64,000 nt of DNA, from NCBI RefSeq assembly GCF_001049895.1, contig NZ_CVPE01000003.1:62001-126000 (forward strand). The letters are read 5' to 3'. This stretch comes from Rubeoparvulum massiliense. Its GTDB lineage: Bacteria; Bacillota; Bacilli; Rubeoparvulales; Rubeoparvulaceae. Positions 6,284 to 52,596 of the stretch are shown one piece after another. Position 1 is the stretch's first letter. Every line of letters starts with the position of its first letter. A program made the position numbers and the translations under genes. The notes below the pieces were generated by a model that saw only the letters and a list, made by a program, of their open reading frames with translations, had not been told where the DNA came from and made no database searches.

Positions 6284-6367
6284 TCAATTTATTCTCATTC
6301 TAGTTTAAGTCTTGTTATAGTATATCATCGTCTGGTTACTTTTGCCACTGCTGATATGCATTGGAAG

Positions 6368-6402
6368 CAAAAATAAGCGCCTGACCTATTTAGGTCAGGC
6401 GC
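6368..6402 (-). terminator. rnpB terminator
   Basis: Perfect 12-base stem (6377-6388 with 6391-6402, two-base loop) followed on the minus strand by TTATTTTTGC. It directly follows the RNase P RNA 3' end. Confidence 0.9.
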
Positions 6403-6410
6403 ATCAATGC

Positions 6411-6830
6411 TTTAGAAGTAGAGCTATAAGCCGGGTTCTGTTCTCCAGGTGGTCATATCGCATCGTCTGCTCCCACCTCTTGGAGTGGTAATCATTTATC
6501 TAGGTTTACCTTCACAGATAAACTCAAGCCTCTTACCATCAAGGACACGTACGGGCAGCACGTTCGGTGATTAAACACCTGTCCTACTCTTAGAGTTGCA
6601 CCAGATGGGGTTTACCAGATAAGCAGTTGCCTACCTACCTCGTGAGCTCTTACCTCACGCTTCCACCCTTACCTGTGATGCTTGCGCATCCATCGGCGGT
6701 CTCTGTTTCTGTGGCACTAGCCATCATCTCGCGATGTCCAGCTGTTAGCTGGCATCTTCGCCCTATGGTGCCCGGACTTTCCTCTTGCAAGTTACCTTGC
6801 CAGCGATTACCCGCTCTACTTCTCATTTGC
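6411..6830 (-). ncRNA. rnpB: RNase P RNA, class A architecture
   Basis: Catalytic RNA of RNase P, which trims tRNA 5' leaders. Reading the minus strand, the P1 helix closes the molecule (AGAAGTAGAGC near 6813-6823 with its complement near 6414-6424). The conserved GAGGAAAGTCCGGGC core follows, then CCATAGGGC, and the 3' core AGAACCCGGCTTA. Between them are AGACCGCCGATGG and CAGGTAAGGGTGGAA flanking a hairpin, then a second hairpin, which is the P13/P14 arrangement of class A RNAs such as E. coli M1. The B. subtilis class B RNA lacks it. The 5' end is set from the promoter. The identification as rnpB is secure; the class call is by eye. Confidence 0.95.
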
Positions 6831-6837
6831 ATTCTTA

Positions 6838-6866
6838 ATTATAACGGGTTACCCTCCATTCTGCAA
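6838..6866 (-). promoter_or_regulatory. rnpB promoter
   Basis: On the minus strand TTGCAG (6861-6866), 17 nt, TATAAT (6838-6843): a near-consensus sigma-A promoter. The transcript is expected to begin near 6830, just upstream of the P1 helix of RNase P RNA. Confidence 0.85.
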
Positions 6867-6924
6867 CAGGAAGAGTAACAATTTAATATAGCAAATGTAT
6901 GGAAATTAGGCAAGTGGTATCTAT

Positions 6925-7758
6925 TTAACAAAATTGGAATGGGTTGGTATTTGCTTGTGAAATTATAAACTGGGTCTCGGAGGCTGACTTCCGTGCCATG
7001 GCAGTCTGCTGGAGATAACGAGCTACTTCTGCTTTCATAATATGCTCCATATAGTGGCCACCATCGATGAGGGCCAGACCAGCAGCCATGGCATCATGAG
7101 CTGTATGGTAATAGATGTCACCTGTGATTAAAACATCTGCCCCACGGAATGCAGCCTTCTGGACAAAACGATTGCCATCACCGCCAACCACCGCAACCTT
7201 ATTCACCAGTTGCGAAGGTTCTCCCACAATCCGTGCCCCATCGAGAAGAAAAAGCTCTTTCACTTGCATAGCTAACTCATGTAAGGTACATGGCTCTGGC
7301 AAAACCCCTATGCGACCCACGCCATATGCTTTTTCACTCTTCACCACAGGGTTCGTGACTTCATACTGGTGTGCTTCTAGCAATTCGACCTGCCTCAAGC
7401 CAAGCCGTGTAGCTATCCAGTCATTTAAGCCACCCTCTGTAATATCGAGATTGGTATGGACGGTATAGACCGCAATGTCATGGGATAATAACTTTTGGAG
7501 CACACGCCCTGCGGGGAGATCCGTCCGAAGATGAGCCAGTGGGCGATAGATCAGTGCATGGTGAGAGATGATTAGATCAACGCCTAGCTCAATCGCTTCA
7601 TCCACCACTGCTTCAAGGACATCTAGTGTAATCATCACCTTTTTAATCTCCCGGTTCACACGTCCCACCTGCAAGCCGATCCGATCATCCTCATAGGCCA
7701 AATACTTTGGTGCTAATTCCTCGATCCATTGGATGATTGTTTCTCCCCGTAGGTACAT
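6925..7758 (-). CDS. Nif3-like protein (YqfO/DUF34 family), short form
   Basis: A 277-residue member of the Nif3/YqfO (GTP cyclohydrolase 1 type 2) family, a dinuclear-metal hydrolase-like fold of uncertain biochemical role. Metal-binding segments are visible: [13 protein letters not shown] near residues 62-74, the VYTVHTNLD segment near 96-104, and [12 protein letters not shown] near 234-245. Many Firmicute YqfO proteins are about 370 residues because of a PII-like insertion in the middle; here the two halves are joined by a short segment, so that domain is missing. The start has AAGGAGG 8 nt upstream and lies 46 nt inside trmK, a conserved pairing in Bacilli that points to coupled translation. 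Confidence 0.88.
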
Positions 7759-8489
7759 TGTAAGACCTCCTTGATTATCGTGATCTCATCCTGAAATCTG
7801 CGAAGCTGTTCCATTACCTGCTCTTGCTCCTTCGCTTTCATCATGGATTCTAACGCTTGCTCTCGTTTATGAAGCTCACCTTGCCATTTTTCATGGAAAA
7901 TGGCACCACCTTGCCGTACCAGTAATGGACCTACTAAGAAGAGATGCTCCTGGGAAAGCTGAGGATGATCATAGGCAGGATCCCAGGGCTCCTGATTCTC
8001 TTTCCTTTGGGCTGGCTCGGCCGCCATCATTTCATAGATTTTCCCATCCTCTTTCACGATTCGCTCCGCCACCAGCTGCCAGCCATGGGAATAAAGCCAG
8101 CGTCGCACACTCTGGGCAGCCACATTAGGCTGAAGGATCAAGCATTGAACTCCAGCTAACCGAGCCTCGTCATTCTGCAGAATCGAAGTGATCAAGGTTC
8201 CTCCCATCCCTGCGATTACGATGGCATCCACTTCGCCTGGAGTAAGAACACTTAGTCCATCGCCTTGGCGAATCGCGATCTCCTGAGATAGACCAGCCTC
8301 ATCCACATGTCGGTGCGCCATCTGTAAAGGTCCTTCATTAAGCTCTCCTGCAATCGCTACTGGAGCGATCCCTTCCCTTACAAGATAAGTGGGGAGATAC
8401 GCATGATCGCTACCGATATCAGCGATTCTGTACCCTGAGGGAACCAATTGGGCGATGGTTTGTAAACGGATCGAATTTTCTACGCTCAT
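7713..8489 (-). CDS. trmK: tRNA (adenine(22)-N1)-methyltransferase TrmK
   Basis: A 258-residue SAM-dependent methyltransferase that makes m1A22 in tRNA. The Rossmann motif is [13 protein letters not shown] (about residues 21-33); next come the acidic ribose-binding AGELNEG and the catalytic-region [10 protein letters not shown], all typical of TrmK (YqfN). The C-terminal part (from about residue 190) is charged and predicted coiled-coil, also as in the family. It is the first gene of a two-gene unit with the Nif3-like gene, which it overlaps by 46 nt, and lies downstream of the fadD terminator. Confidence 0.93.
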
Positions 8490-8514
8490 GTTGCAACTCC
8501 TTTAAATCCTGACC

Positions 8515-8551
8515 AAATTTGAAAGGGTTGCCTCATACGACTGGGCAACCC
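8515..8551 (-). terminator. Terminator after acyl-CoA ligase
   Basis: Stem GGGTTGCC (8525-8532) / GGCAACCC (8544-8551), followed on the minus strand by TTTCAAATTT. It separates the fatty-acid pair from trmK-nif3. Confidence 0.8.
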
Positions 8552-8594
8552 CCCATCCATCAATATCCTACCTTTTCAGCGCAAGAACTGCAAG

Positions 8595-10154
8595 CTACTG
8601 TTGAAGCTCTTGCTCGATTAATTTTCGTCGTAATAGTTTACCCGAAGGCCCCTTGGGAATCTCTGCAATAAAGCGAATCTCCTTTGGACACTTATAATCA
8701 GCCAGCTGCTGGCTGCAGTAGTCAAGGAATTCCTTCTCCGTGGCGATACATCCCTCCTTCAGAACAATAAAGGAGAGCACCTCTTCGCCATACTTCTCGT
8801 CTGGAATTCCCACTGTTGCTGCATCACGCACCTTGGGGTGTGCATATAATGCTTCATCCACTTCACGGGGGTAGATATTCTCACCACCGCGGATGATCAT
8901 ATCCTTCTTTCGGTCTGTTAAGTAGAAATAACCATCTTCATCACGGTAGCCAACATCACCGGTATGGAACCAGCCATCACGGAATGCTTCCTCATTGGCT
9001 TCTGGTCGCTTAAAGTATCCCTTCATCACATTTTGTCCTCTGACAATGATCTCTCCCCGCTCATAGGCTGGCAGCTCATTACCATTCTGGTCTACCACCT
9101 TCATCTCATTACCTACAGGAAGACCAATGGAGCCATAACGGCGATACTGATTCCCTGTACCAATTCCCTCTTCACCATGAGGAGGATGAGGATTAAACGA
9201 TGAATAGCATGTGGTCTCCGATAAACCATAGCCTTCAATAATATAGATTCCCACCTTCTGCTCAAAAGCACGCTGTACCTCAACGGGTAGCGGTGCAGCA
9301 CCACAAATACAGAAGCGGAGCGATGAGAGATCATATTGGGTTAAGTCTACATTGGTATTAAGTAAGATGGTGAGATTGGTGGGAACAGCACTAAACCAAT
9401 TGACCCGATATTTTGCAATGGTGGGAAAGAATTGACTCGCTGAGAAGCGCTCTGGCATCACCACCGATCCTCCTGATAAGAGTGGAGTGATAAGCGTCAC
9501 AACCTCTCCATTCACATGGAAGAGGGGAAGGATACACATGGCACGATCATCTGGGGTGAGTCCATGCCAGATCGCGATCTGTTCCGCATCATAGAGTAGA
9601 TTCTCATGGGTTAATAACACCCCCTTGGGATGACCTGTGGTACCTGATGTATAAATGATCATCGCTTCATCATGGGAAGCGACAGCCTGCTGTTCAATTT
9701 CAGTTGATTGCGCTTCTAACAAAGGATAGAAGGATTGAGCCAACTCAGAATCCGGTTCATCTACTACTAGAATGGTTTGTAAGAGAGGAAGCTGATCACG
9801 AATCGCTTGTAGCGCTGGAAGATAGGTACTTGTTGTTGCTAGAACCTTGGCCTCTGAATTATGGATCACATATTGCAATTCAGCAGACTTGAGTAAGATA
9901 TTCACGGGTCCTGCAATAGCGCCAAGCTTCATCGTTCCAAAATAAAAGTAGAGAAATTCAGGAATATTGGGTAAGAGTAGTGCTACCTTATCTCCATGGG
10001 TAATCTGCAATTGCCGCAATAGATTGGCTGTTTGACTTACCCGTTGATTCAACTGTTGGTATGAAATGATCTCCTCTCGTTCAGGCACAATTAAATAGGG
10101 CTTCTCTCCATATTTCGCTGCCTGTAGTTCGATTAATTCACCGATGGTCTTCAT
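8595..10154 (-). CDS. Fatty-acid/aryl-CoA ligase, AMP-forming
   Basis: A 519-residue ANL-superfamily enzyme that activates a carboxylic acid to acyl-AMP and then acyl-CoA in the cytosol. Motifs are the P-loop-like IIYTSGTTGHPKGV (about residues 168-181), YGLSETTC, the adenylate-binding TGD in GWFHTGDVG, the hinge YLTDRKKDMIIRGGENIYP, and the catalytic lysine in GPSGKLLRRKL at the C-terminus. I took the ATG at 10154 as start because GAAGGAG lies 9 nt upstream. It is 29 nt downstream of an acyl-CoA dehydrogenase gene, so the pair probably feeds beta-oxidation. Chain-length preference is not readable. Confidence 0.9.
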   Translation of the reverse strand: MKTIGELIELQAAKYGEKPYLIVPEREEIISYQQLNQRVSQTANLLRQLQITHGDKVALLLPNIPEFLYFYFGTMKLGAIAGPVNILLKSAELQYVIHNSEAKVLATTSTYLPALQAIRDQLPLLQTILVVDEPDSELAQSFYPLLEAQSTEIEQQAVASHDEAMIIYTSGTTGHPKGVLLTHENLLYDAEQIAIWHGLTPDDRAMCILPLFHVNGEVVTLITPLLSGGSVVMPERFSASQFFPTIAKYRVNWFSAVPTNLTILLNTNVDLTQYDLSSLRFCICGAAPLPVEVQRAFEQKVGIYIIEGYGLSETTCYSSFNPHPPHGEEGIGTGNQYRRYGSIGLPVGNEMKVVDQNGNELPAYERGEIIVRGQNVMKGYFKRPEANEEAFRDGWFHTGDVGYRDEDGYFYLTDRKKDMIIRGGENIYPREVDEALYAHPKVRDAATVGIPDEKYGEEVLSFIVLKEGCIATEKEFLDYCSQQLADYKCPKEIRFIAEIPKGPSGKLLRRKLIEQELQQ

Positions 10155-10183
10155 TGTACTCATCTCCTTCAATCATCTGAATA

Positions 10184-11329
10184 TTAGTGGAAACACCCGA
10201 TTTCTCGGGCAATGACATTGCGTTGGATTTCGGAGGTTCCTTCCCCGATCTCTAATAAGCGTGTATCACGGTAGAAGCGTTCTACCTGATAATCATGCAT
10301 ATAACCATAGCCTCCATGAATCTGAATGGCCCCATCACAGACCCGTGAACTCATTTCTGTAGCATAGAGCTTCGCCATGGCCGCCTCCTTCGTATAGGCA
10401 CGGTTACGATCCTTTAACCATGCTGCCTTATACACCAAGTTCCGTGCTAATTCAATTTCTAATGCCATATTCGCTAGGCGATGATGAATCGCCTGAAAGC
10501 GTGCGATGGAATGACCAAATTGCTTCCGTTCCTTCGCATACTGAAGTGCTTTCTCAAAAGCGCCTTGGGCAATCCCTACTGCCATGGCAGCGATTCCGAT
10601 TCGGCCGCCATCCAAAGTCGTCAAGAATTGTTTAAAGCCCTGTCCTTCCACCCCTAGAATATTCTCACGGGGAACACGTACCTCATCAAGAATGATCTCT
10701 GTTGTATTGGAGGCATGGAGTCCCATTTTCCGATAGGGTGTATAGATAGTGATCCCTTTTAGGTGGGTTGGAACGATGAGCGCACTGATCCCCTGCTTTC
10801 CCTTCTCTAGATGAGTTTGTGCTGTCAAGGTGACAAACTGGGCAAAGCTCGCATTGGTAATAAACACCTTCGTTCCAGAAATCACCCACTCTTCTCCATC
10901 TAAGTATGCTCTCGTTTCTGTCCCACCTGCATCAGAGCCTGCATTGGGCTCAGTCAATGCGAAGGTACCTAGGCATTCCCCTCTACATAATGGTGAGAGA
11001 TAGGTGGATTTTTGCTCCTCATTCCCAAACATAGCAATGGGAGCAGCCCCCAACGAGATATGGGCAGAATACGTAATCCCTGTGGATGCACAGACACGAC
11101 TTAGCTCTTCGGTTACAATGACAAAGCTAAGCGTATCCCCACCTCCACCTCCATACTCTTCAGGAAATGGTAGACCTAACATCCCCAGTTCACCTAACTG
11201 TTTCATCACATGGATCGGAAATTCTCCACTCAAATCACGTTCATTGGCACCAGGCTCCACCTCTGCTTCAGCAAACTGCTGAATGGTTTTTTTCAGCAGT
11301 CGCTGTTCTTCTGTTAAATCAAAGTCCAA
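10184..11329 (-). CDS. Acyl-CoA dehydrogenase
   Basis: A 381-residue FAD-dependent acyl-CoA dehydrogenase catalysing the first dehydrogenation step of beta-oxidation, passing electrons to ETF. Family signatures are present: [18 protein letters not shown] (about residues 121-138), [32 protein letters not shown] and the C-terminal [12 protein letters not shown] with the catalytic-base Glu in GEGT. The start is a TTG at 11329: an AAGGGTGAT Shine-Dalgarno ends 4 nt before it and the protein then begins at the conserved [12 protein letters not shown] at 11338 lies inside the ribosome-binding site. First gene of a pair with the acyl-CoA ligase; a repeat-rich operator candidate lies just upstream. 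Confidence 0.9.
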
Positions 11330-11348
11330 GCGAATCACCCTTTCCGAG

Positions 11349-11373
11349 TGAGCGTTTGCTCAGGCTTGCTCAG
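11349..11373. promoter_or_regulatory. Operator candidate upstream of acyl-CoA dehydrogenase
   Basis: Perfect inverted repeat TGAGC-GTTT-GCTCA (11349-11362). One arm is repeated 10 bp further on, as TTGCTCAG at 11356-11363 and again at 11366-11373. It sits between the promoter and the ribosome-binding site of the fatty-acid pair. TetR-family regulators commonly control such genes; the site does not match the B. subtilis FadR consensus spacing. Confidence 0.45.
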
Positions 11374-11401
11374 ATATTTTTCAAACCTTTTCATTATTCA
11401 G

Positions 11402-11430
11402 ATTATTCTATTCGTCACTTTTCCATGCAA
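11402..11430 (-). promoter_or_regulatory. Promoter of the fatty-acid pair
   Basis: On the minus strand TTGCAT (11425-11430), 17 nt, AATAAT (11402-11407). It would start transcription near 11395, upstream of the repeat-rich site and the acyl-CoA dehydrogenase start. Confidence 0.6.
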
Positions 11431-11440
11431 TCCTTCTTAA

Positions 11441-11467
11441 AAACAAAAAAAACCCCATCCACGGGGT
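11441..11467 (-). terminator. Terminator of the membrane protein gene
   Basis: Stem ACCCC (11452-11456) / GGGGT (11463-11467), followed on the minus strand by a run of eight T, just after the stop at 11479. Confidence 0.85.
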
Positions 11468-11478
11468 CATAATAAAAA

Positions 11479-12324
11479 TTATTTTCGCTTGCGCCATAAC
11501 TTAATGCTTAATGTAATCAAGACCGTTGCAATCAGTGTCTTCGCCAGGAAGAATAATTGGAGCTCTAGGGATTGTAAATTACTCAGATATAATGCTTGGA
11601 GCTCAGGACCAAATAGCATTAATACAATAAGCAGAATGAAGTAAGGAAACCAGCGTTGGAGAATCGTGGTGCGGAGCCAGACCAATACGCCAAGAATGAT
11701 CATCGGCAGAATCCAAATCAGCTGGACAATCCAAATAGACTCTCCGTCGATTTGCGGATATAACCAGATCGCATAGCATAGGACCAGTGCGATCTCTCCG
11801 CCAATAATCAGATAAGGTACTTTAAAAATAAATCCCATAAGTAGCCATAGCAAGGCGATGAGAAGAAGAAAGCTAGGCTTTAAACCGGAGTCCATGCCAT
11901 CGCCCAGCTGAAATTGCAGCAGGAAGGCGAGCCAGATTAGCAGAAGCGCTGCTGAACCCATAAAGAGATGGGCAAAGGGCTCTTTTCGCTTTAAGAGCCA
12001 TGCTCCTGTTCCTAATAGAAGGAGGAAAAGAAATCCAACGAAAAGAATTTGCATTGTCGGATCAAAATCGGTAAAATGGTAGGCAAGATAAATAATTCCA
12101 GTTAAGGAGGAGACTAGCACCAGCAGTAACCATTTGAAACGCTTCAATTTCTCCCAAAGGAAATGCTTCGCTCCACTTGATTGGGGTAGTCCCTCCGCAG
12201 AAGAACTTACCTCCCCTTCGGTATAAAGATTGAGGAGGAAATCACAATAATGGGCAGGGAGCAGTTGGTTTCTTTTCCAGGATTCTATCTCAGTAACGAT
12301 TATTTTGCGTTTAACATCATCCAT
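11479..12324 (-). CDS. Conserved membrane protein of unknown function
   Basis: A 281-residue protein. Residues 1-60 form a soluble N-terminal part with the phrase KRKIIVTEIESWKRNQLLP, followed by HYCDFLLNLYTEGE. This is a short helical domain also found at the start of other Bacillales membrane proteins (DUF2157-like appearance). About eight predicted membrane helices follow (residues 64-280), ending in a basic tail. No catalytic motif is visible. It lies downstream of rpoD, separated by a hairpin, and has its own terminator. I do not recognise a function. Confidence 0.75.
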   Translation of the reverse strand: MDDVKRKIIVTEIESWKRNQLLPAHYCDFLLNLYTEGEVSSSAEGLPQSSGAKHFLWEKLKRFKWLLLVLVSSLTGIIYLAYHFTDFDPTMQILFVGFLFLLLLGTGAWLLKRKEPFAHLFMGSAALLLIWLAFLLQFQLGDGMDSGLKPSFLLLIALLWLLMGFIFKVPYLIIGGEIALVLCYAIWLYPQIDGESIWIVQLIWILPMIILGVLVWLRTTILQRWFPYFILLIVLMLFGPELQALYLSNLQSLELQLFFLAKTLIATVLITLSIKLWRKRK

Positions 12325-12392
12325 GGGTATCCATCCTTTACCTGGGTCTACTGATTATGTCGGCACTTTTTCTCCCTTTTTCAAGCATAGAA

Positions 12393-12425
12393 AGACCTAC
12401 ATGTTCGCAATCAACATGTAGGTCT
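12393..12425 (-). terminator. Hairpin after rpoD
   Basis: Perfect 13-base stem (12393-12405 with 12413-12425). On the minus strand only TTCT follows, so as an intrinsic terminator it is moderately convincing. Confidence 0.6.
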
Positions 12426-12453
12426 CTAGGTCTAAAACATGGAAACCATGCAA

Positions 12454-13575
12454 TTATTCTAAGAAATCTTTTAAACGTTTGCTACGACTAGGATGGCGCA
12501 GTTTACGCAAAGCTTTAGCTTCAATTTGACGGATACGCTCCCGCGTAACGCCAAAAACCTTACCAACCTCTTCGAGTGTACGGGTGCGTCCATCATCAAG
12601 GCCAAAACGCAGACGTAGCACATTCTCTTCCCGCTCAGTCAGCGTATGTAAGACACTCTCCAATTGCTCCTTCAACAATTCGTAAGCAGCAGCATCTGAA
12701 GGGGCTAACGCATCCTGATCTTCAATAAAATCACCTAGATGGGAATCATCCTCTTCACCGATAGGTGTCTCAAGGGAGACAGGCTCCTGAGCGATCTTCA
12801 TAATCTCCCGAACCTTTTCAGGTGGTAAATCCATTACCTTACCAATCTCTTCAGGTGTAGGTTCACGACCGAGCTCTTGTAATAGTTGCCGTGATACACG
12901 GATGAGCTTATTGATGGTTTCTACCATGTGTACCGGGATGCGGATGGTCCTAGCCTGATCCGCAATTGCACGCGTAATGGCTTGACGAATCCACCAAGTA
13001 GCATAGGTACTAAACTTGTACCCCTTCGTGTAATCAAATTTTTCAACGGCTTTGAGCAAGCCCATATTACCCTCTTGAATTAAATCTAGAAAGAGCATCC
13101 CCCGACCAACATAACGTTTTGCGATACTTACCACAAGACGTAGGTTGGCTTCTGCTAAACGGCGCTTCGCCGATTCATCCCCTTGTTGTATCCGCTTGGC
13201 CAGTTCAATCTCCTCTTCTGCACTAAGAAGGGGAACACGACCAATCTCTTTTAAATACATACGAACAGGGTCATTGATTTTGACTCCTGGTGGAACGGAG
13301 AGATCATCCATCTTTAATTCGTCAATCTCTTTGTCATCCTTCATTTGATTAAAGTCTGGTTCCTCATCCTCTTCCGTATCCTCGTTGAGAACTTCTACTC
13401 CCTGGTCACTTAGATACTCAAAAAACTCATCAATCTGGTCTGCATCCTGATCAAAGGGTGAGAGCTTATCCATAATCTTTTTATAAGAGAGTGAACCCCG
13501 TTTCTTCCCTACTTCAACGAGGTGCTCTTTTACTTGCTCCAAGGAGTGCCCCATTTCGGAGTGTTCATTCGGCAT
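12454..13575 (-). CDS. rpoD: Housekeeping RNA polymerase sigma factor SigA
   Basis: A 373-residue primary sigma factor, directing RNA polymerase to -35/-10 promoters. The N-terminal region 1.1 is short and followed by an acidic linker, as in Firmicutes. Region 1.2 begins [11 protein letters not shown]; region 2 contains [15 protein letters not shown], then [26 protein letters not shown] and the IRQAITRA segment. Region 3 follows, and region 4.2 is [20 protein letters not shown]. The start at 13575 has AGGAGG 7 nt upstream and overlaps the end of dnaG by 11 nt, the classical dnaG-rpoD arrangement. The -35/-10 boxes noted elsewhere in this window fit recognition by this protein. Confidence 0.97.
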
Positions 13576-43123: not shown

Positions 43124-44014
43124 TTAGATAATGGTAACTGCAATTGCAGCAGCAAGGATGAGATAACGTAAGATAAAACCTCCAGCAAGTACGAACAGTT
43201 CAATCAACATGGTCATTGCTGAACCAGATGCAGATGCTGCACCACCTGCAGAAATTTCTACACTCTCCTTACGATGCTTCATCAATTCCATTCCTTCCAC
43301 AGCAAGTGGGATGATTAAACCGACAATCATCAGTCCACCCCAGAAGAGCATGCTGAATTCACCAGAGAGTAAGGAACGAACTGATTCACTAGCCACGGTG
43401 CTTACAGAGCTTGTGATGTAGAACATGGTGAAGAGAAGCAGAATTTCAATAGCGATAAGCCAGAAGTGAATTCTCTTCATCTGAACCGTTCCATTCATCG
43501 CAGTACGATCCATGAGCAAGCCAGTAAAGACGGTAATCGCCATCCCAGTGGAAGCTGCAGAGACTGCGAAGAGAATGGGTAGAATTGAAGTGTTCCAGAG
43601 CGGTACTGTGTTCACAACACCGATTAGGAAGCCGGTATACATAGCCGTCCCTACAGCGAAGGCAACACCGATGTATTCAAGCCATGCAGGAATCGCTTTT
43701 TTAAGAAAATTGAGAAGTGCAACAAAAAATGTAATCATGATGAAAACCGATAGTATGGCAGTACCAATGGTCATCATCGAACCCCAGTTTACAAAGAGGT
43801 AAATAAACCGTAAGGGATGTTTCAATCCTGCTTCAGCATCTACGATGAGGAGCAGCAAGCCGATGGCTAATAAGACGGGAGCTAAATAACGACCTGCTGT
43901 CACCAATGCTTTCTTTTCTGGATATTTACGACTCACATAGAATGCAGTTACGAATGCTCCTGCACTCAAACCTGCTAAAAACAGATAGATTGCAATCATT
44001 GTTCCCCAAGCCAT
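43124..44014 (-). CDS. NrfD/PsrC-type quinol-interacting membrane subunit, operon 1
   Basis: A 296-residue integral membrane protein with eight predicted helices (NrfD/PsrC, PF03916-like). It anchors the molybdoenzyme complex and exchanges electrons with the menaquinone pool. A conserved acidic motif LLLIVDAEAGLKHPLRF follows the second helix, and LPILFAVSAASTGMA lies midway. The ATG at 44014 is preferred to a GTG at 44023 because GAGGTGA sits between them as ribosome-binding site. It is 5 nt after the ferredoxin subunit gene. It looks closely related over its whole length to the copy at 48.0-48.9 kb. Confidence 0.9.
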   Translation of the reverse strand: MAWGTMIAIYLFLAGLSAGAFVTAFYVSRKYPEKKALVTAGRYLAPVLLAIGLLLLIVDAEAGLKHPLRFIYLFVNWGSMMTIGTAILSVFIMITFFVALLNFLKKAIPAWLEYIGVAFAVGTAMYTGFLIGVVNTVPLWNTSILPILFAVSAASTGMAITVFTGLLMDRTAMNGTVQMKRIHFWLIAIEILLLFTMFYITSSVSTVASESVRSLLSGEFSMLFWGGLMIVGLIIPLAVEGMELMKHRKESVEISAGGAASASGSAMTMLIELFVLAGGFILRYLILAAAIAVTII

Positions 44015-44019
44015 CTTGC

Positions 44020-44559
44020 TCACCTCACATAGAAAATTTTTGGTTTCGTACCTAAGTCAGGACGTAATTGTTGGGCTTTCTTTTCAACAATTGCTTTGGA
44101 AATATCACTATTTGGATCATCCAAGTCGCCGAAAATACGAGCACTGCCAATACAGGTTTCTACACAAGCAGGTTGCCAGCCAGCAGTTACTGCTTCATAG
44201 CAGAAGCGACATTTTTCTACGACACCGGTCTCTTCATTAACCACACGGGCATCGTAAGGGCATGCTACCATGCAGTACTTACAGCCAATGCATTTTTCAT
44301 GATCTACGAGAACCATACCTTCTTCTGTATAGTAGGAAGCACCAGTTGGACACACATTGACACAAGGTGCATCTTCACAGTGCTGACATTGTACTGGGAA
44401 GATTTGCAAGGATACATTCGGATAAGTACCTGTTTCTTTTTCATAGAACTTGATAAAAGATTCAGATGGCGGAAGACTATTAGTCATTTGACAGTCTACC
44501 CGGCATGCAAAGCACCCAACACATTGGGACACATCGATTAACATTCCATAGCGTGGCAT
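44020..44559 (-). CDS. Four-cluster ferredoxin subunit (PsrB/DmsB-like), operon 1
   Basis: A 179-residue electron-transfer subunit with four cysteine groups for [4Fe-4S] clusters: CVGCFACRVDC, CQHCEDAPCVNVCP, CIGCKYCMVACP and CRFCYEAV with a later CVETC. It relays electrons between the membrane subunit and the molybdenum subunit. No signal peptide is present, as expected for a subunit co-exported with its Tat-signal partner. It begins directly after the stop codon of the catalytic subunit gene. The partner in operon 2 has the same length and all cysteines in the same places. Confidence 0.93.
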   Translation of the reverse strand: MPRYGMLIDVSQCVGCFACRVDCQMTNSLPPSESFIKFYEKETGTYPNVSLQIFPVQCQHCEDAPCVNVCPTGASYYTEEGMVLVDHEKCIGCKYCMVACPYDARVVNEETGVVEKCRFCYEAVTAGWQPACVETCIGSARIFGDLDDPNSDISKAIVEKKAQQLRPDLGTKPKIFYVR

Positions 44560-46761
44560 CTATGCTCCCACCTTTCTGATTCGGACGATGGCTTCTTGAC
44601 ACATAACGCCACCACCGGTAGGCTCTGTATCATGTTTCGCATGGTCATTGTAGCTAAAGCCTACACCATTCGCGATTGTCAGTCCTTTAGAGAAGCTACC
44701 ATAACCAGATGGAATGAAGACTGCTTCAGGATGGAGCCGTTCAGTTACCTTAACCCTTACTTGGCTCTTCGCTAAGTCTGATTCCACTTCAACCATGTCG
44801 CCATCCTTGATCCCTAAGGCTTTCGCCCGTTCTGCATTGATCCAAAGTCGCTCTAAGTCATAATCCTTCGTAATCTGCATCAAAGACTCAAGGTTTGCTG
44901 TGGAACTATGGGAGTGAATGCTCTGTTTACCGGTAATTAAGCGGAAGGAATTCTCATCAGGCATGGTCTTTGGTGGATACCATTGGGGAACAGCATTAAA
45001 GCCTGCTTCCTCATACGCCTTGCTATAGAATTCGATCTTGCCCGATTCCGTTTTTAATTTCGGCATCTTACCCATTTCTGCTTTATTATCTTCAAACGTA
45101 ATGGTACCTTGCTCACGCAATTCTGCCATGGTGATACCTAAAGGAGCAATATTGGCTTCATTCAATTCTTCCAAGGTGAAGTTGAAGTATTGACCTAAGC
45201 CCATGGCATTGGCAAGACCTACCACAATTTCATCGAAGGGCTTACATTCTGGATGAACGATATCAATGGCTTTTTGCCGTAAGTATACAGCACCCTTCTT
45301 ACCGCTTAGGGCACCAACCAGTTCATCACGTTCTAGATAGCTCACTTCTGGTAATACATAGTGAGCCAGCTCAGCTGTTTCGGAGAGCTGAATATCGCAG
45401 ACAACCAGTAGTTCAATCTCTTTTAATGCATCAATCCACACGGCTGGGTCTGGGAAGTTACGAACGGGGTTAATATGATTAACCAGATAAGCTTTTACAG
45501 TACCATCTTTTACACCGTCAGGAACTGCCTGTGGCATTCCTTTACCAGGAGAAACCAGTGGATATCTGCCTGCTTCACCTGCACCGTCAAAACGTTTACC
45601 CTTTGCCTTTGGTGGTTTTGGATGCTTGGTTTCATCGAGGGAGCCTAGCTTTGGTTTTGCACCAAAGTAGCTACCACCATCTTGCTGAATATTGCCTAGT
45701 AAAGCGTTATAGAGCGATACTGCACGGGCTGTCTCAGTGCTATTAATATAAGCGCAACCAAAGGCTCCGCGCCATGAAGTATCTACTACAGCTTTAGGCT
45801 TCGCTTTTGCCATGTCATGGGCAATCTCGATGATCTTCTCAGCAGGGATTCCTGTAATCTCAGCAGCCCACTCAGGAGTATACTTGGTTAATTCTTTCGC
45901 ATATTCTTCAAAGCCCACACTATTTTCTACCACAAAGTCCTTGTCATATAGGTCTTCTTTTACGAGGACATGGGATAATGCAAGCACGAATGCCAGGTCC
46001 GTACCAGGACGGATAGAAAGCCATTCAGACGCGAAAGGTGCCGTGTTATTTAAGCGAGGGTCCACCAACACAATCTTCGCACCATTCTGTTTTGCCTTCA
46101 CAAGGTTTTGTAAGTGTCCTGGACGAATCCCATCACCATAACTACGACCGATGAACAGTACATACTTCGCTTTGGCAACATCAGAGCTTGGTGTACTACC
46201 TACGGTCCATTCATAGCCAATGTCACGAGAGAGGTTACAGGACGCACTGTGAGCAGAATAGTTAGGTGAACCAATGGCATCAAGGAAACGTTTTGAGTAG
46301 AAGGTATTGGTGGTCTTTGGATTCTCTGAATAAACCACGGATTCGCCACCATACTTCTTCACAATCTCATTCAGTTTCGTTCCAATCTCTTCATAAGCTT
46401 GTTCCCAGCTAATCGGTTCAAAATCTCCATTTTCATTCTTCTTCAAAGGTTGTGTTAAACGATCTGGTGAATAAGGCCAAGTTGCTGCCCCATGTCCCCT
46501 TGCACATAATTTCCCTTTACTGTAGGAATGGTTTTCTTGTCCAGAAAGACGATACACACGTCCATTTTTACTAAAGAGACGGATACCGCATTTACTAGTA
46601 CAACCATTACAAGTGGTTGGGGTGATAACTGTTGGAGCTTCTTCACCTTCTGCTTTCAATTGTGACCATTCATGAAAGCCAACCGTACCTGTTGCAACAA
46701 CGGCTGTTGTTGCAGCTGATGTCTTTAGAAACGTACGGCGTGAAATCTTATGTTCTAACAT
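44560..46761 (-). CDS. Molybdopterin oxidoreductase catalytic subunit (PsrA/PhsA-like), operon 1
   Basis: A 733-residue bis-MGD molybdoenzyme with a Tat signal (ISRRTFLKTSAA near residues 6-17), so it works outside the membrane. A [4Fe-4S] site follows: CNGCTSKC with the fourth Cys in KLCARGHG. Cys175 (SASCNLSRD) is at the position of the Mo-ligating cysteine of polysulfide and thiosulfate reductases. The C-terminal MGD-binding domain starts about residue 615. Size, motifs and the B and C partners suggest a polysulfide-, thiosulfate- or similar reductase; the true acceptor is not readable. Upstream lie a Crp/Fnr-like site and G-rich leader sequences. It is first in a three-gene operon. Confidence 0.9.
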   Translation of the reverse strand: MLEHKISRRTFLKTSAATTAVVATGTVGFHEWSQLKAEGEEAPTVITPTTCNGCTSKCGIRLFSKNGRVYRLSGQENHSYSKGKLCARGHGAATWPYSPDRLTQPLKKNENGDFEPISWEQAYEEIGTKLNEIVKKYGGESVVYSENPKTTNTFYSKRFLDAIGSPNYSAHSASCNLSRDIGYEWTVGSTPSSDVAKAKYVLFIGRSYGDGIRPGHLQNLVKAKQNGAKIVLVDPRLNNTAPFASEWLSIRPGTDLAFVLALSHVLVKEDLYDKDFVVENSVGFEEYAKELTKYTPEWAAEITGIPAEKIIEIAHDMAKAKPKAVVDTSWRGAFGCAYINSTETARAVSLYNALLGNIQQDGGSYFGAKPKLGSLDETKHPKPPKAKGKRFDGAGEAGRYPLVSPGKGMPQAVPDGVKDGTVKAYLVNHINPVRNFPDPAVWIDALKEIELLVVCDIQLSETAELAHYVLPEVSYLERDELVGALSGKKGAVYLRQKAIDIVHPECKPFDEIVVGLANAMGLGQYFNFTLEELNEANIAPLGITMAELREQGTITFEDNKAEMGKMPKLKTESGKIEFYSKAYEEAGFNAVPQWYPPKTMPDENSFRLITGKQSIHSHSSTANLESLMQITKDYDLERLWINAERAKALGIKDGDMVEVESDLAKSQVRVKVTERLHPEAVFIPSGYGSFSKGLTIANGVGFSYNDHAKHDTEPTGGGVMCQEAIVRIRKVGA

Positions 46762-46794
46762 TTACTTGTCCCTCCCTTGCGTTCGACAAATTTT

Positions 46795-46810
46795 CGTGAA
46801 TTTTTTCACA
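46795..46810. promoter_or_regulatory. Crp/Fnr-family binding site candidate
   Basis: CGTGA-N6-TCACA on the plus strand (equally TGTGA-N6-TCACG on the minus strand), 9 of 10 positions of the TGTGA-N6-TCACA consensus. It is centred about 41 nt upstream of the start codon of the operon 1 catalytic subunit. Fnr-type control fits an anaerobic reductase; whether it would activate or repress from this position is unclear. Confidence 0.5.
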
Positions 46811-47050
46811 CTTTTGCCACTTTCAATTCCTCATGAGCGATAAAATTACCCCTCCTCGTAACCCCCTTGCTAACCCATAACATTTTTCAAATTTCGATGA
46901 GGTAGATAGTGGAACTCCTCCCTCACTAATAAGTGTAGCGTAATATTTCTATCTTAGGGTTGAACTCTTTTCGACCAAGAATAGACTTTGAATAGTATTT
47001 TACCCTCATCGTTTGTTACTTGTTCATATGTCGTTCATATTCAATTGGTA

Positions 47051-47082
47051 CTATAAGTAACTCCAATAGCAGCTATAAGTAA
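47051..47082. repeat. Direct repeat with 22-nt period
   Basis: CTATAAGTAA occurs at 47051-47060 and again at 47073-47082, about two helical turns apart, between torD and operon 1. It could be paired regulator sites; nothing more can be said. Confidence 0.4.
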
Positions 47083-47128
47083 GCACAATAAAGCATTTTA
47101 ACTATTGGAAGCTAACTAGAATAATTAT

Positions 47129-47170
47129 AAAGCAAAGGACCTAGGTGGTTTTCCCTAGGTCCTTTGCTTT
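47129..47170 (-). terminator. Strong hairpin at the end of torD
   Basis: Perfect 17-base stem (47129-47145 with 47154-47170), overlapping the torD stop codon. An AT-rich but not T-only tail follows on the minus strand. It isolates torD from operon 1. Confidence 0.75.
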
Positions 47171-47789
47171 ACCGAAACTGCTTCTCTTTTTTGGTAATTT
47201 CCATTAATAATTGGACCACATCTTGATAAATTGACGGAGCTTTTACCTCTTTCATCTTCTCATGAAAGTCAGGAAGCCAATCGAGGTGATCCTGTAAAAA
47301 TTCACTCACCATCTGATCGGTCCCCTCCGTCATGAGGAAGCCTAAAAATTCTAGAATTAAGGTGAGATGGTCAGGAATTCCTTGATATTCATCAGGAATC
47401 TCCAAATGGCTCTGTTCAAATAAGTATTTCATATGAAGTGCTGGATCACCATAGAGATAGCCCTTTTGATTCACCAGCATTACCTCAGCTTCAGGATCTG
47501 TCGTCCATTCTTTGTAGATTGATTCAATGGGCTGTGCAGATGGATGATAAATTCCAGAAAAGGCATGAATATATTCCGATCTAAAGGATGAATAATCCTT
47601 AATATACTCACTTAAGTTCAGCGAATACTCTCCATACCCAGCATGGGAAAAAAGTCTTCGTAGTTCTTCATCCACCTCCCCACTCTTCATCTGTTGCACA
47701 AATTCTTCTTCAGGTAATTTAAACATCTCAGCAAAGATAAGAATCACTTCACTTGCTGCTTCTTTGCGTTGATCCATATTATTCTCCAT
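47169..47789 (-). CDS. TorD/DmsD-family molybdoenzyme chaperone
   Basis: A 206-residue all-helical chaperone that binds Tat signal peptides of molybdoenzymes and holds them until cofactor insertion. Family landmarks are AQPIESIYKEW (about residues 82-92), YLYGDPALHMKYLFE (about 111-125) and PDHLTLILEFLGFL (about 139-152). AGGAGG is 7 nt upstream of the ATG. It is a single-gene unit between two paralogous molybdoenzyme operons, with hairpins on both sides, so it can serve both catalytic subunits, whose signal peptides are nearly alike. Confidence 0.92.
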   Translation of the reverse strand: MENNMDQRKEAASEVILIFAEMFKLPEEEFVQQMKSGEVDEELRRLFSHAGYGEYSLNLSEYIKDYSSFRSEYIHAFSGIYHPSAQPIESIYKEWTTDPEAEVMLVNQKGYLYGDPALHMKYLFEQSHLEIPDEYQGIPDHLTLILEFLGFLMTEGTDQMVSEFLQDHLDWLPDFHEKMKEVKAPSIYQDVVQLLMEITKKEKQFR

Positions 47790-47934
47790 TCATCTTCCTC
47801 CTTCCAAGATTCCAACGACATCGGTTTTTCTAATGGGATGTCTATTCAATATTGTACCTTGTCTACTAGAATTATCCCTGTGGTATTAAAGCTCCTTTAT
47901 GACGAAATGATGAAGTGATTTTCATGCTATCTAG

Positions 47935-47972
47935 ACAAAACAACCTACGCTCCTAGGGAGACGTAGGTTGTC
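47935..47972 (-). terminator. Terminator of respiratory operon 2
   Basis: Stem CAACCTACG (47941-47949) / CGTAGGTTG (47962-47970), followed on the minus strand by TTTTGTCT. It ends the 51.6-48.0 kb operon. Confidence 0.85.
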
Positions 47973-48011
47973 TAATCCTTCAACACATACCCAAATCATG
48001 CTTCAAGGTGC

Positions 48012-48893
48012 TTAAATAATGGTGACTGCAATGGCAGCTGCGAGAACGAGATAACGGAGAAGGAAACCCCCTACGAGCACAGCTACCTCTGCGATGACGG
48101 TGGAGCCAATACTTACACTACCATCAGCAGCAACAGAAGCTTTCTCTTTACCGCCTTTAAATAATTCCATGCCTTCCATAAGTGTAGGAAGAACGAGTCC
48201 TACTAAGACCAAGCCCACCCAGAAGAGCATCGCCCATTCACCTGTAACAAGAGCTTGAACGGATAATCCTGCCTCAACACTCACAGAATTCGTAATATAG
48301 AGCATGGTGAATAAAAGAATCAATTCAATAATCATCAGGCTGAAGTGAATCTTCTTCATACCGAATACCTTGTGTAAATCTTCCTTATTCACAAAAGTAG
48401 TTACTACCAAGGTGATAGCCATCCCTGTGGATGCTGCAGATACAACAAAGAGGATTGGTAGAATTGAAGTGTTCCACAATGGAGCAGTGTTAACTACCCC
48501 AATTAAGAACCCTGTGTAAATGGCTGTGCCTGTGGCGAAGACAACACCAAGCACCTTTAACCATTCTGGTACAGCCTTCTTCAGCCACGTGAATAGGGCA
48601 ACAAAGAATGAAATAATGATAAAGATCGATAGAATAATTGTTCCAATCGTCATCATGGAGCCGAGATTGGAGAAGAGATAGAAGAAACGTAAGGGATGAT
48701 GAAGCCCTGCCTCCGCGTCCACAATGAGTAGTAGTAGACCAATGGCTAAAAGTATAGGTGCCAGGATATAGCCTACTGTTTGCAATGTTTTCGCTTCAGG
48801 CATCTTTTTCCCTACATAGTAAGCAGTAACAAAGGCCCCTGCGCTTAAGCCAGCTAAAAATAGATACCATGCAATAATTGCTCCCCATGCCAT
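48012..48893 (-). CDS. NrfD/PsrC-type quinol-interacting membrane subunit, operon 2
   Basis: A 293-residue NrfD-type protein with eight predicted helices, paralogue of the operon 1 subunit. It shares MAWG at the start, LLLIVDAEAGLHHPLRFFYL, NTSILPILFVVSAASTGMA and the C-terminal LRYLVLAAAIAVTII. Role as for the family: menaquinone-side electron exchange. The ATG at 48893 is chosen over a GTG at 48902, because GAGGTGA lies between them. The clearest differences from operon 1 are in the loop after helix five (KEDLHKVF against TAMNGTVQ) and in the charged region before the last helix. Confidence 0.9.
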   Translation of the reverse strand: MAWGAIIAWYLFLAGLSAGAFVTAYYVGKKMPEAKTLQTVGYILAPILLAIGLLLLIVDAEAGLHHPLRFFYLFSNLGSMMTIGTIILSIFIIISFFVALFTWLKKAVPEWLKVLGVVFATGTAIYTGFLIGVVNTAPLWNTSILPILFVVSAASTGMAITLVVTTFVNKEDLHKVFGMKKIHFSLMIIELILLFTMLYITNSVSVEAGLSVQALVTGEWAMLFWVGLVLVGLVLPTLMEGMELFKGGKEKASVAADGSVSIGSTVIAEVAVLVGGFLLRYLVLAAAIAVTII

Positions 48894-48898
48894 GGTGC

Positions 48899-49438
48899 TC
48901 ACCTCACATAAAAGATTTTTGGCTTAGTTCCAAGGTCTGGACGGAGTGGTTGTGCATGTAGGCGTGCAATCTCCTTAGAGACCTCACTATTGGGGTCGTC
49001 CAAGTCCCCAAAGATCCGTGCCCCACCAATACATGTTGCGACGCAGATCGGTTGATTACCCTGCTCCACTTCTTCCACACAGAACCGACATTTCTCTACG
49101 ACACCAGTCTCTTCGTTGACAACACGGGCATCGTATGGGCAGGCCACCATGCAATATTTACAACCAATACATTTATCATGATCAACAAGTACGATTCCAT
49201 CTTCCCGTTTATAAGAAGCACCAGTTGGACAAACTTCAACACAAGGTGCGTCCTCACAATGCATACATTGCGTTGGGAAAATCTGATAAGAAACATTGGG
49301 GAATGTTCCTTCTTCTTTTTCATGGAACTTAATAAAAGCCTCTTCAGGTGGTAAACTATTCTGCATTTGACAGGCTACACGACAGCCATAGCAACCGACA
49401 CATTTTTTTACATTGATTAACATTCCATAGCGTGCCAT
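48899..49438 (-). CDS. Four-cluster ferredoxin subunit (PsrB/DmsB-like), operon 2
   Basis: A 179-residue subunit with four [4Fe-4S] cysteine groups: CVGCYGCRVAC, CMHCEDAPCVEVCP, CIGCKYCMVACP and CRFCVEEV with a later CVATC. Over its length it is very similar to the operon 1 copy, with identical stretches such as DHDKCIGCKYCMVACP (one change) and RPDLGTKPKIFYVR. The ATG at 49438 has AAGGTG upstream and gives the same length as the paralogue; a GTG at 49447 is possible. It follows the catalytic gene by 5 nt and precedes the membrane subunit gene by 5 nt. Confidence 0.93.
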   Translation of the reverse strand: MARYGMLINVKKCVGCYGCRVACQMQNSLPPEEAFIKFHEKEEGTFPNVSYQIFPTQCMHCEDAPCVEVCPTGASYKREDGIVLVDHDKCIGCKYCMVACPYDARVVNEETGVVEKCRFCVEEVEQGNQPICVATCIGGARIFGDLDDPNSEVSKEIARLHAQPLRPDLGTKPKIFYVR

Positions 49439-49443
49439 AGCGA

Positions 49444-51609
49444 TCACACCTTCCTTACCTTAACGATGATTTCTTGAACCATGGAATGACCACCCATAGG
49501 CTCAATGTCAAACTCCAGATGGTCCATATAACTGAAGCCGACACCTACTGCATTCGTTAGGTATTTTGAGTAGTTCCCGTATGGTGAAGGAACGAACACA
49601 CACTCAGGATATAACCGTTCCGTTACCTTTAAGCGTACTTGGCTCTTCGCCATGCTAGATTCTACTTCCACAAGGTCCCCATCTTTTAGACCTAACTCGG
49701 CTGCACGCTTTGCATTCATCCATAAGCGTTCAGAATCATAATCCTTGGTAATCTGCATGAGATAGGGTAGGTTGGTTGAATAGCTATGTGTGTGATACCC
49801 TTGTTTTCCATTGATCAAGCGGAAGGAATCTGCATCTGGCATCACTTTCGGAGGAATCCAACTAACGATAGGACTAAAGCCTGCTTTCTTAAATGCTTCA
49901 CTGACGAACTCGACCTTGCCAGATGGTGTTTTTAGCTTAAACTCTGCTGGTGCAGCAGGTGCGGCAGGTTTTGGTGGGAAGATAATCCCTTTTTGCCGTA
50001 GCTCATCGATATTAATACCCAATGGTTTAACCCGAGCAGCATTCAGTTCTTGAATGGTAAAGTTGAAATATTGACCTAAGCCCATCTCTTTGGCGATGTT
50101 GGTTATAATTTCGTCAAAGGGGCGGGTATCTTCATATACTCGATCGATGGCTTGTGCCCGAATAATTGCGCCAGCACCTTGAGCAGCCACCACATCTTCC
50201 CGCTCCAGATAGCTAGGTTCTGGTAGCACATAATCTGCAGCGAGTGCTGTTTCAGACATTTGTACATCACAGACAATGGTAAGTTCCATTTTTTCCATGG
50301 CATCGATCATGGTTTTTGGATCCGTATAGTTCCGTACAGGATTGGTCTGACAGAAGATGACTGCTTTCGCCTCACCGGATTCTGCCTTCTCTGGAATTAT
50401 GGTGGCTACACCGGTTCCCGTGCTAACCAGTGGAAAACGTGCATCCCAACGAGGAAGCTTGGACTTCTCAGGAACTGGTTCCATATCGCCTAATTTAGCA
50501 CCACCGCCAAAGGTTAATCCACCTTTTTGATTAATATTACCTAGTAAGGCGTTAAAGAGGGCGGCAGCACGGCCACATTCTGTACTGTTATAGTAGACGC
50601 AACCATTGGCTCCACGCCAACCAGGTTCGATCATGGCATGTGGTTTAGCGGCTGCGATCTCTCGAGCGATGCGGATAATCGTTTCCTGCGGAATATCAGT
50701 AATCTCTGCAGCCCATTCTGGGGTATATTCGTTCATGGCCTTCGCATATTCATCGAAGCCAATGGAGTTATTTTGAACAAATGCTTCATCATATAATTTT
50801 TCAGTAATCACCACATTGGACATGGCTAGGATGAGTGCAAGGTCAGTACCTGGACGAATGGGGATCCACTCATCACCGAGGGGAACGGTGGCATTCAAGC
50901 GAGGATCGACGAAGACAATCTTCGCTCCATTATCCTTCGCTGTGGTTAAATCATAGACACTGGCAGGACGAATCCCATCGCCATAGCTCCGACCAATGAA
51001 GAGAATGTACTTACTGTTCTTAATATCTGCACCGGGTACACCACCAATGGTATGGATATAGCCCGTATTCCGACCATTATTACAGCATACTTGGTGTGTA
51101 AAGTAGTTTGGTGAGCCGATGGCTGCAAGAAAACGTGGACCATAGTAACTCCCTGTAGGACGGGGGTCTTCCACATAGCCAACACTCTGTGGTCCATATT
51201 TTTTAATGATTTCATTAAGCTTTTGGCCAATCTCCTGATAAGCTTGCTCCCAGGTAATCTGCTCAAAAGTTCCATCCTCTTTTTTCTTAAGGGGATGTTG
51301 TAAGCGGTCTGGTGAATAAGCTAAGGTTGCAACACCATGACCACGGGCACATAATTTCCCTTTACTAAAGGGATGATCAGGGTGCCCTTCCATTTTCCAT
51401 AAGCGCCCATTCTTCGTGATCACTAAAACGCCACATTTACTTGAACACGCGTTACACAAAGAAGGGGTAACTTTGATATCATCATGTTGGTTGCCTTCTG
51501 CAAGCGTTTTTGACCAAGCATGAAAGCTGACGGTTCCTGTTGTAAGAACTGCGCCAGTTGCAGCCGATGCTTTCAAGAAACTTCTACGACTGATTTTGCT
51601 GTCTAGCAC
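49444..51609 (-). CDS. Molybdopterin oxidoreductase catalytic subunit (PsrA/PhsA-like), operon 2
   Basis: A 721-residue bis-MGD molybdoenzyme, paralogue of the operon 1 subunit, starting at a GTG (51609) that has AAGGAGG 8 nt upstream. The Tat signal is ISRRSFLKASAATGAVLTTG. The cluster cysteines are CNACSSKC with KLCARGHG. The Mo-ligand position is Cys175, here in QVCCNNGRN with a second cysteine next to it, unlike SASCNLSRD in operon 1. A proline/alanine-rich stretch lies near residue 550. The changed pocket suggests that the two enzymes do not reduce exactly the same compound; that is inference. First gene of a three-gene operon. Confidence 0.9.
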   Translation of the reverse strand: MLDSKISRRSFLKASAATGAVLTTGTVSFHAWSKTLAEGNQHDDIKVTPSLCNACSSKCGVLVITKNGRLWKMEGHPDHPFSKGKLCARGHGVATLAYSPDRLQHPLKKKEDGTFEQITWEQAYQEIGQKLNEIIKKYGPQSVGYVEDPRPTGSYYGPRFLAAIGSPNYFTHQVCCNNGRNTGYIHTIGGVPGADIKNSKYILFIGRSYGDGIRPASVYDLTTAKDNGAKIVFVDPRLNATVPLGDEWIPIRPGTDLALILAMSNVVITEKLYDEAFVQNNSIGFDEYAKAMNEYTPEWAAEITDIPQETIIRIAREIAAAKPHAMIEPGWRGANGCVYYNSTECGRAAALFNALLGNINQKGGLTFGGGAKLGDMEPVPEKSKLPRWDARFPLVSTGTGVATIIPEKAESGEAKAVIFCQTNPVRNYTDPKTMIDAMEKMELTIVCDVQMSETALAADYVLPEPSYLEREDVVAAQGAGAIIRAQAIDRVYEDTRPFDEIITNIAKEMGLGQYFNFTIQELNAARVKPLGINIDELRQKGIIFPPKPAAPAAPAEFKLKTPSGKVEFVSEAFKKAGFSPIVSWIPPKVMPDADSFRLINGKQGYHTHSYSTNLPYLMQITKDYDSERLWMNAKRAAELGLKDGDLVEVESSMAKSQVRLKVTERLYPECVFVPSPYGNYSKYLTNAVGVGFSYMDHLEFDIEPMGGHSMVQEIIVKVRKV

Positions 51610-52305: not shown

Positions 52306-52382
52306 TGGCGCGCCCTGAGAGATTCGAACTCCCGACCTTTTGATTCGTAGTCAAACACTCTATCCAGCTGAGCTAAGGGCGC
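52306..52382 (-). tRNA. tRNA-Arg (anticodon ACG)
   Basis: A 77-nt cloverleaf including encoded CCA. Acceptor GCGCCCT pairs with AGGGCGC; the anticodon loop is CTACGAA between TTTGA and TCAAA; the T loop is TTCGAAT. Last gene of the three-tRNA cluster. The A34 is expected to be edited to inosine. Confidence 0.95.
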
Positions 52383-52402
52383 ACGATTTGATGGCAAACC
52401 AA

Positions 52403-52491
52403 TGGTGCCGAGGACCGGAATCGAACCGGTACGGTAGTCTCCTACCGCAGGATTTTAAGTCCTGTGCGTCTGCCAGTTCCGCCACCCCGGC
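52403..52491 (-). tRNA. tRNA-Leu (anticodon TAA)
   Basis: An 89-nt tRNA with a long variable arm (class II) and encoded CCA. Acceptor GCCGGGG pairs with CCTCGGC; the anticodon loop is CTTAAAA between CAGGA and TCCTG, giving TAA. Middle gene of the cluster. Confidence 0.95.
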
Positions 52492-52520
52492 TTGTGACAT
52501 GCAGACAAATTTAAAAAAGA

Positions 52521-52596
52521 TGGAGCGGAAAACGGGACTCGAACCCGCGACCCCAACCTTGGCAAGGTTGTGCTCTACCAGCTGAGCTACTTCCGC
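52521..52596 (-). tRNA. tRNA-Gly (anticodon GCC)
   Basis: A 76-nt tRNA with encoded CCA. Acceptor GCGGAAG faces TTTCCGC; the anticodon loop is TTGCCAA between CAACC and GGTTG, giving GCC; the T loop is TTCGAGT. First gene of the cluster, 36 nt after the -10 box of its promoter. Confidence 0.95.

Follow-up and report, generated by a model that had tools for sequence, protein, structure and literature searches.

Tandem PsrABC-type operons around one torD gene in Rubeoparvulum massiliense: a candidate mosaic of distinct catalytic subunits and more closely related membrane modules

When two operons with the same gene order stand side by side, the question is whether they are twins or whether their subunits have different histories. 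This question is raised by a stretch of 64,000 nucleotides of Rubeoparvulum massiliense (contig NZ_CVPE01000003.1, positions 62,001 to 126,000 of the forward strand; 'the window' below), which carries two operons for molybdenum enzymes, each encoding a catalytic subunit (A), a ferredoxin-like subunit (B) and an NrfD-type membrane subunit (C), with a single torD chaperone gene between them. An initial annotation of the window had read them as a duplicated respiratory island. Our analysis points instead to a mosaic, to which we assign a probability of roughly one half: two reductases exported by twin-arginine translocation (Tat) would combine old, distinct catalytic heads with membrane modules that are closer kin, and torD would perhaps be common to both. 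That the paired operons are real, and ordinary in kind, is clear from their layout, which reads 5′ to 3′ on the minus strand as follows (U, upstream operon; D, downstream operon):

49444..51609, minus strand: A_U, MopB catalytic subunit of the upstream operon, 721 residues, GTG start; Tat signal, [4Fe-4S] cysteines and Mo-ligand Cys
48899..49435, minus strand: B_U, ferredoxin-like subunit; a visual count in the translation gives 16 cluster cysteines, for four 4Fe-4S
48012..48902, minus strand: C_U, NrfD-type membrane subunit, 296 residues; profile match
47932..47978 (approximate limits), minus strand: terminator-like hairpin between C_U and torD, its 3′ arm T-rich; fold z −4.5
47169..47789, minus strand: torD, NarJ/TorD-family chaperone, 206 residues; PF02613 match
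47127..47172, minus strand: intrinsic-terminator-like hairpin at the torD end; fold z −9.4
44560..46761, minus strand: A_D, MopB catalytic subunit of the downstream operon, 733 residues
44020..44559, minus strand: B_D, ferredoxin-like subunit; 16 cluster cysteines
43124..44023, minus strand: C_D, NrfD-type membrane subunit; predicted model with eight long helices
43016..43047, minus strand: intrinsic-terminator-like hairpin 3′ of C_D; fold z −5.1

Gene spacing is alike in both operons, with at most 10 bases between A and B and an overlap of 4 bases between B and C. The initial annotation was thus right in describing two complete tandem operons of the same order and spacing, with torD alone between them and flanked by hairpins of its own, and also in describing the A subunits as diverged (58.4% protein identity between U and D, compared with 78.7% for B and 66.6% for C). 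The B subunits it had called near-identical are not, however, as their identity of 78.7% in protein corresponds to 72.8% in DNA.

The divergence of the catalytic subunits goes along with different relatives. In a tree of 50 rows, i.e. the window pair and 48 hand-picked hits from those above 250 bits, A_U groups with one copy each, here called U-type, from the genomes G063, G048 and G007 of family f8 and G001 of family f2, with A_D outside. Support for this group is 100/99 and remains 99/98 in a tree of 43 rows, for which 12 of the 50 rows were removed (long branches, all Coriobacteriia, none of them U-type, and three deep rows) and 5 added; in this tree A_D lies outside the Bacillaceae copies too (99/97 and 98/99). 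Sisterhood of U and D had been set beforehand as a hypothesis by the initial annotation, and grouping of U with f8/f2 was set after the A tree had been seen. Forcing U+D in A carries a penalty of 21 to 33 log units across four row sets, and is rejected in two of them with p values of 0.0125 and 0.0254, the latter in the row set used for B+C, from which 5 of 20 rows had been removed. Of the sites that are invariant among the four U-type relatives, 68 in A favour U+f8, 42 favour D+f8 and 16 favour U+D.

The membrane modules lean the other way. In single-gene trees C pairs U with D at 94/92 and B does so weakly (81/74), and with B and C joined, U and D come out as sisters (82/95) and a grouping of U with the f8/f2 relatives of its A is rejected (p = 0.0155). 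Counted as above, sites in C divide into 15 for U+D, 5 for U+f8 and 2 for D+f8, those in B into 8, 8 and 7, and the patterns of A and C differ with a Fisher p of 4e-6 if columns are treated as independent. On fixed trees A prefers U+f8 by 32 units, whereas C prefers U+D by 13 units and B by 1, and a change-point is placed near the A/B junction with p = 0.036, an optimistic value given that its two trees were chosen after the gene trees. Within A itself, the signal peptide parts company with the mature protein: the Tat signals of U and D are 64% identical, compared with 47-53% between U and its four A-relatives, whereas for mature A the corresponding values are 58% and 61-67%. The first 36 columns of A, i.e. 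the Tat signal, lean towards U+D like C, and 30 of 681 windows of the same length lean as far. The catalytic subunits are therefore read here as probably belonging to old, distinct lineages and the membrane modules as closer kin, and there is moderate support from these comparisons for replacing the picture of duplicated twins by that of a mosaic. In other words, B and C pair U with D, whereas a simple duplication is not well supported for A, in that A_U groups with copies of other families, although U+D for A is rejected in just two of the four row sets. A grouping with an unrelated family or separate acquisition, which the initial annotation had named as outcomes that would contradict it, is found in part: A_U stands apart from A_D, yet neither A falls into an unrelated family.

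Several observations weigh against the mosaic. Support for the A_U group is lower in other row sets (87/98 and 83/74), and U+D for A stays unrejected in two of the four sets (p = 0.104 and 0.071), which hold rows absent from the two rejecting sets, rows having been removed after the first results were seen. For the membrane part, the U+D pairing in B+C is unstarred, B taken by itself is neutral, and when columns are bootstrapped the interval of the B+C contrast (−34 to +3.4) extends to zero. The signal peptide of A_D resembles that of L185, the U-type locus of G063 (61%), almost as much as that of A_U. Finally, young gene conversion was considered and rejected, as no young tract appears in windows of silent identity between U and D (0.30-0.57); averaged over genes, silent identity is 0.41-0.50, compared with 0.34-0.42 expected from codon usage. 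With protein identities being modest and codons for common residues just moderately more alike than codon usage predicts, the U/D split is old.

Part of these data also suits a simpler history, in which a single ABC operon was duplicated in tandem within this lineage and A_D then evolved faster or is misplaced towards the base of the group. Adjacency, common gene order, the B and C trees and the similar signal peptides speak for such an event, and the two non-rejecting row sets for A agree with it. Nevertheless, we regard it as rather unlikely: the two other row sets reject U+D, the sites of A favour U+f8 over U+D by 68 to 16, and the end branch of A_D is just slightly longer than that of A_U (0.41 versus 0.37 in the 43-row tree).

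Conversely, two separately acquired operons could have remained without any exchange, their B and C subunits being alike because both have to fit one membrane, one quinone and one machinery for Fe-S assembly. The relatives of A_U in other families, the shortness and conservation of B and the lack of a young conversion tract would all be in line with this, but copies in other genomes make it improbable. Genome G058 has two unlinked copies (A 72%, B 83% and C 71% identical) in which A, B and C each follow their orthologues in other genomes and no such pull is seen, although this single case has a B pair that is itself 83% alike. In G048, G007 and G063, which have non-adjacent U-type and D-like copies, the B subunits are 59-69% alike, compared with 79% in the window. 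A common genome alone thus does not make modules alike, at least there. Membrane modules do get exchanged in this enzyme family, to judge from gene content: the D-like A-B operon of G048 (L048 5726-9347) has as its third gene a cytochrome b561-type protein rather than NrfD. Together, G058, the f8 cases and such swaps favour exchange between adjacent operons, or duplication with replacement of A, over convergence. Returning to the mosaic, the closer kinship of the membrane modules, mainly of C, and of the Tat signals would most simply stem from old recombination or gene conversion between neighbours or, equally well, from a duplication with later replacement of one A. A further step, which we consider doubtful, would be that recombination between the tandem operons keeps the Tat/TorD signal and the quinol subunit similar but leaves the mature catalytic subunits distinct, with two acceptors being served on one homogenised chassis. 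If true, tandem placement itself would keep paralogous respiratory complexes compatible with common partners.

How exceptional is such a pair? Two copies at an identity of at least 43% were found in 6 of 61 genomes, including that of the window, in a scan in which nearly all candidates were scored; in 8 of 398 and 2 of 398 genomes in further scans, in both of which scoring was confined to the top two candidates of each genome; and in 2 of 8 genomes, the same two of 35, in smaller scans. In the ten other two-copy genomes the copies are on separate contigs or have 43 kb to 725 kb between them, and in a further genome, G781, the second copy is broken and partial. In G063, however, a third copy of srr type (rhodanese-A-B-C-torD-rhodanese; L231 2739-8580) directly precedes the U-type operon (L185 4591-8223). 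Two ABC operons around one torD are thus found in at least one other case, there with another partner.

As to what the two operons encode, Pfam profiles detect MopB and a Tat signal (PF10518) in both A, a 4Fe-4S dicluster domain (PF13247) in both B and NrfD (PF03916) in both C. The residues C51, C54, C58, C86 and C175 (A_D numbering) are invariant in 14 of 14 aligned A sequences. Both systems have a Cys ligand to Mo, N-terminal [4Fe-4S] cysteines, a Tat signal, a four-cluster B and an NrfD-type C, and a published MopB survey unites PsrA, PhsA and SrrA in one lineage with a Cys ligand (PMC10100899). On these sequence features, both operons encode PsrABC-type complexes of the PsrA/PhsA/SrrA lineage. 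Among solved structures, polysulfide reductase (2vpw) is closest to both A by sequence and is also the best match of the A_D model (predicted local distance difference test, pLDDT, 89.9; Z 42.9, root-mean-square deviation 1.9, 671 aligned residues), followed by ArrA (Z 37.7); the C_D model, with its 8 long helices, matches ActC (Z 26.2) and PsrC (2vpw_C, Z 21.8).

Set against named families, neither A subunit reaches a curated cut-off or falls within the SrrA clade. PhsA (NF012032) is their top NCBIfam match, with 480.9 and 448.9 bits below a cut-off of 694. Assignment to arsenate, tetrathionate or dimethyl sulfoxide reductase was rejected, as the A subunits reach at most 164, 72 and 263 bits against cut-offs of 1600, 1750 and 777.7 for ArrA, TtrA and DmsA, respectively; so was SrrA, as the 10-row clade of the row taken to be SrrA (100/100 in the 43-row tree) excludes both. 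No rhodanese is present among the seven genes of the island (list of open reading frames and Pfam), unlike at the srr-type loci L210 and L231.

The tandem operons would thus encode two Tat-exported reductases with a molybdenum-bis(pyranopterin guanine dinucleotide) cofactor (Mo-bisPGD). Electrons, presumably from menaquinol, would enter at the NrfD-type C subunit and reach the Cys-ligated Mo centre by way of four Fe-S clusters in B and a fifth in A; there a sulfur-, selenium- or arsenic-type acceptor outside the cytoplasm would be reduced. A_U and A_D probably act on different acceptors. Twenty-six positions are fixed in five U-type A sequences and different in A_D and five D-like relatives; two of them (177 and 181) lie in the Mo-Cys loop, and position 429 is His in A_D and D-like copies and Gln in the U-type. 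Such differences are compatible with different acceptors and show nothing about them.

Could both enzymes be served by the one chaperone gene between them? The torD product matches PF02613 (50.6 bits, cut-off 22.2) but stays below the NCBIfam TorD equivalog NF003442 (54.1 bits, cut-off 132). Hairpins follow tRNA-Arg (see below), C_U, torD and C_D, which makes three separate transcription units plausible: U-ABC, torD and D-ABC. The alike Tat signals fit a single chaperone that reads both, and one torD may serve the two enzymes, with chances that we see as even or slightly better. A tree of torD has many long rows, and just 6 of its 25 inner branches are starred. Against common use stands the finding that no torD match lies within 5-10 kb on either side of 5 of 6 U-type and D-like f8 loci, such that enzymes of this kind may be matured by chaperones encoded elsewhere. 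It is quite possible that torD serves one operon only, the other enzyme being matured by another TorD-family protein or by none. The genome has five PF02613 genes, of which one lies at the operon pair (others accompany MopB clusters: one by DmsA, two by a three-gene cluster on contig 4 and one at C5:108522). Moreover, the order A-B-C-torD in L071 and L191, and with one extra gene in between in L051, L053 and L194, suggests that torD is the last gene of the upstream operon; in the Bacillaceae copies L062, L187, L188, L212 and L214 torD instead precedes A. The hairpins on both sides, however, set torD off, such that it need belong to neither operon, and the Tat signal of A_U resembles that of A_D more than it does those of its relatives. 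Published work ties NarJ-family members to the enzymes of their own operons, nrfD-type operons included (PMC4464133).

Beyond the island, the genome encodes further MopB proteins, i.e. a DmsA (above cut-off), a TtrA-like protein and others, and one TatC. On its contig 5, MopB genes with in-frame TGA (L006 and L013/L014; C5:527794 and C5:39339-40967) are perhaps selenocysteine formate dehydrogenases, and no PF02613 gene is listed near these two.

Further features lie around the operons:

54115-52796, minus strand: mtaB (putative; name from the initial annotation)
52306..52596, minus strand: tRNA-Gly, tRNA-Leu and tRNA-Arg, in the same mtaB-deoC addition as the operons
46795..46810, minus strand: palindrome TGTGAANNNNTTCACG, just upstream of A_D (about 40 bp before its start), a lead only
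42891-42232, minus strand: deoC (putative; name from the initial annotation)

The names of the flanking genes (mtaB, deoC and others) follow the initial annotation and are putative. The site was compared with the mtaB stretches of five relatives (G048, G007, G001, G254 and G816; G780 and G401 were left out). In three of the five, deoC follows mtaB, with gaps of 553 bp (G048), 690 bp (G007) and 1356 bp (G001) that hold neither a MopB operon nor a tRNA, and after deoC comes a transporter-like gene, as it does in the window; deoC was not found near mtaB in G254 and G816, and no close mtaB was found in G063. Because mtaB and deoC adjoin in this way, the 9.9 kb from mtaB to deoC, tRNAs included, looks like an addition in the lineage of the window. 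The proposed insertion into a conserved housekeeping neighbourhood is upheld, with its site better given as mtaB-deoC than as mtaB-rpsU. A mobile element at the tRNA-Arg end was considered and rejected: no second copy of the 3′ end of this tRNA gene lies in the window, and no integrase-like open reading frame was recognised by eye. The G+C content of the operons (0.42-0.47) is that of their surroundings, and that of the torD stretch is lower (about 0.38). In G001, a U-type operon with torD (L051 8076-17970) lies a few kb upstream of a gene that we take to be lepA and about 25 kb from mtaB, i.e. in the same dnaK-mtaB neighbourhood as the island of the window.

The palindrome upstream of A_D is Rex/FNR-like. 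Across the window, 10 scattered matches with at most 3 mismatches compare with 5.0 expected, which is not clearly above chance, and a looser form gives 29 matches against 35.7 expected. The palindrome occurs once in the genome, but with a search pattern written from the site itself.

Known enzymes of the PsrA/PhsA/SrrA lineage reduce polysulfide, thiosulfate or selenite, and which of these a given member uses is not readable from its sequence. One genome with two such operons in tandem, their heads distinct and their membrane modules closer kin, would lend itself naturally to comparing what determines the acceptor and to what extent two enzymes can have chaperones and quinol modules in common. 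It also carries a warning, in that trees of A only and trees of B and C only may give different histories of one operon.

Among characterized systems, PsrABC of Thermus thermophilus (2vpw) is the best structural match, with the same subunit plan, Cys-ligated Mo and an NrfD-type subunit, yet its PsrA is just 32% identical to A_D over the structural alignment and sits on a separate deep branch of the 43-row tree; as for PhsA, the Citrobacter and Shewanella rows are likewise far from the window pair in this tree. The rhodanese-A-B-C-TorD-rhodanese operon L210 (G816, 6070-13013), which we tentatively take to be the respiratory selenite reductase operon srr of Bacillus selenitireducens MLS10 because of its layout (the label SrrA in the tree being equally tentative), belongs to the same lineage and has the A-B-C-torD-family order in common with the window, but is flanked by rhodanese genes and has a longer C (391 residues) that scores weakly with the C profile. 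The U-type ABC operons of G048, G007 and G063 (f8) and G001 (f2) have the same B and C types and A subunits 60-66% identical to A_U, whereas their genome location is another one, no D-type operon adjoins them and their C subunits are just 54-57% identical to C_U.

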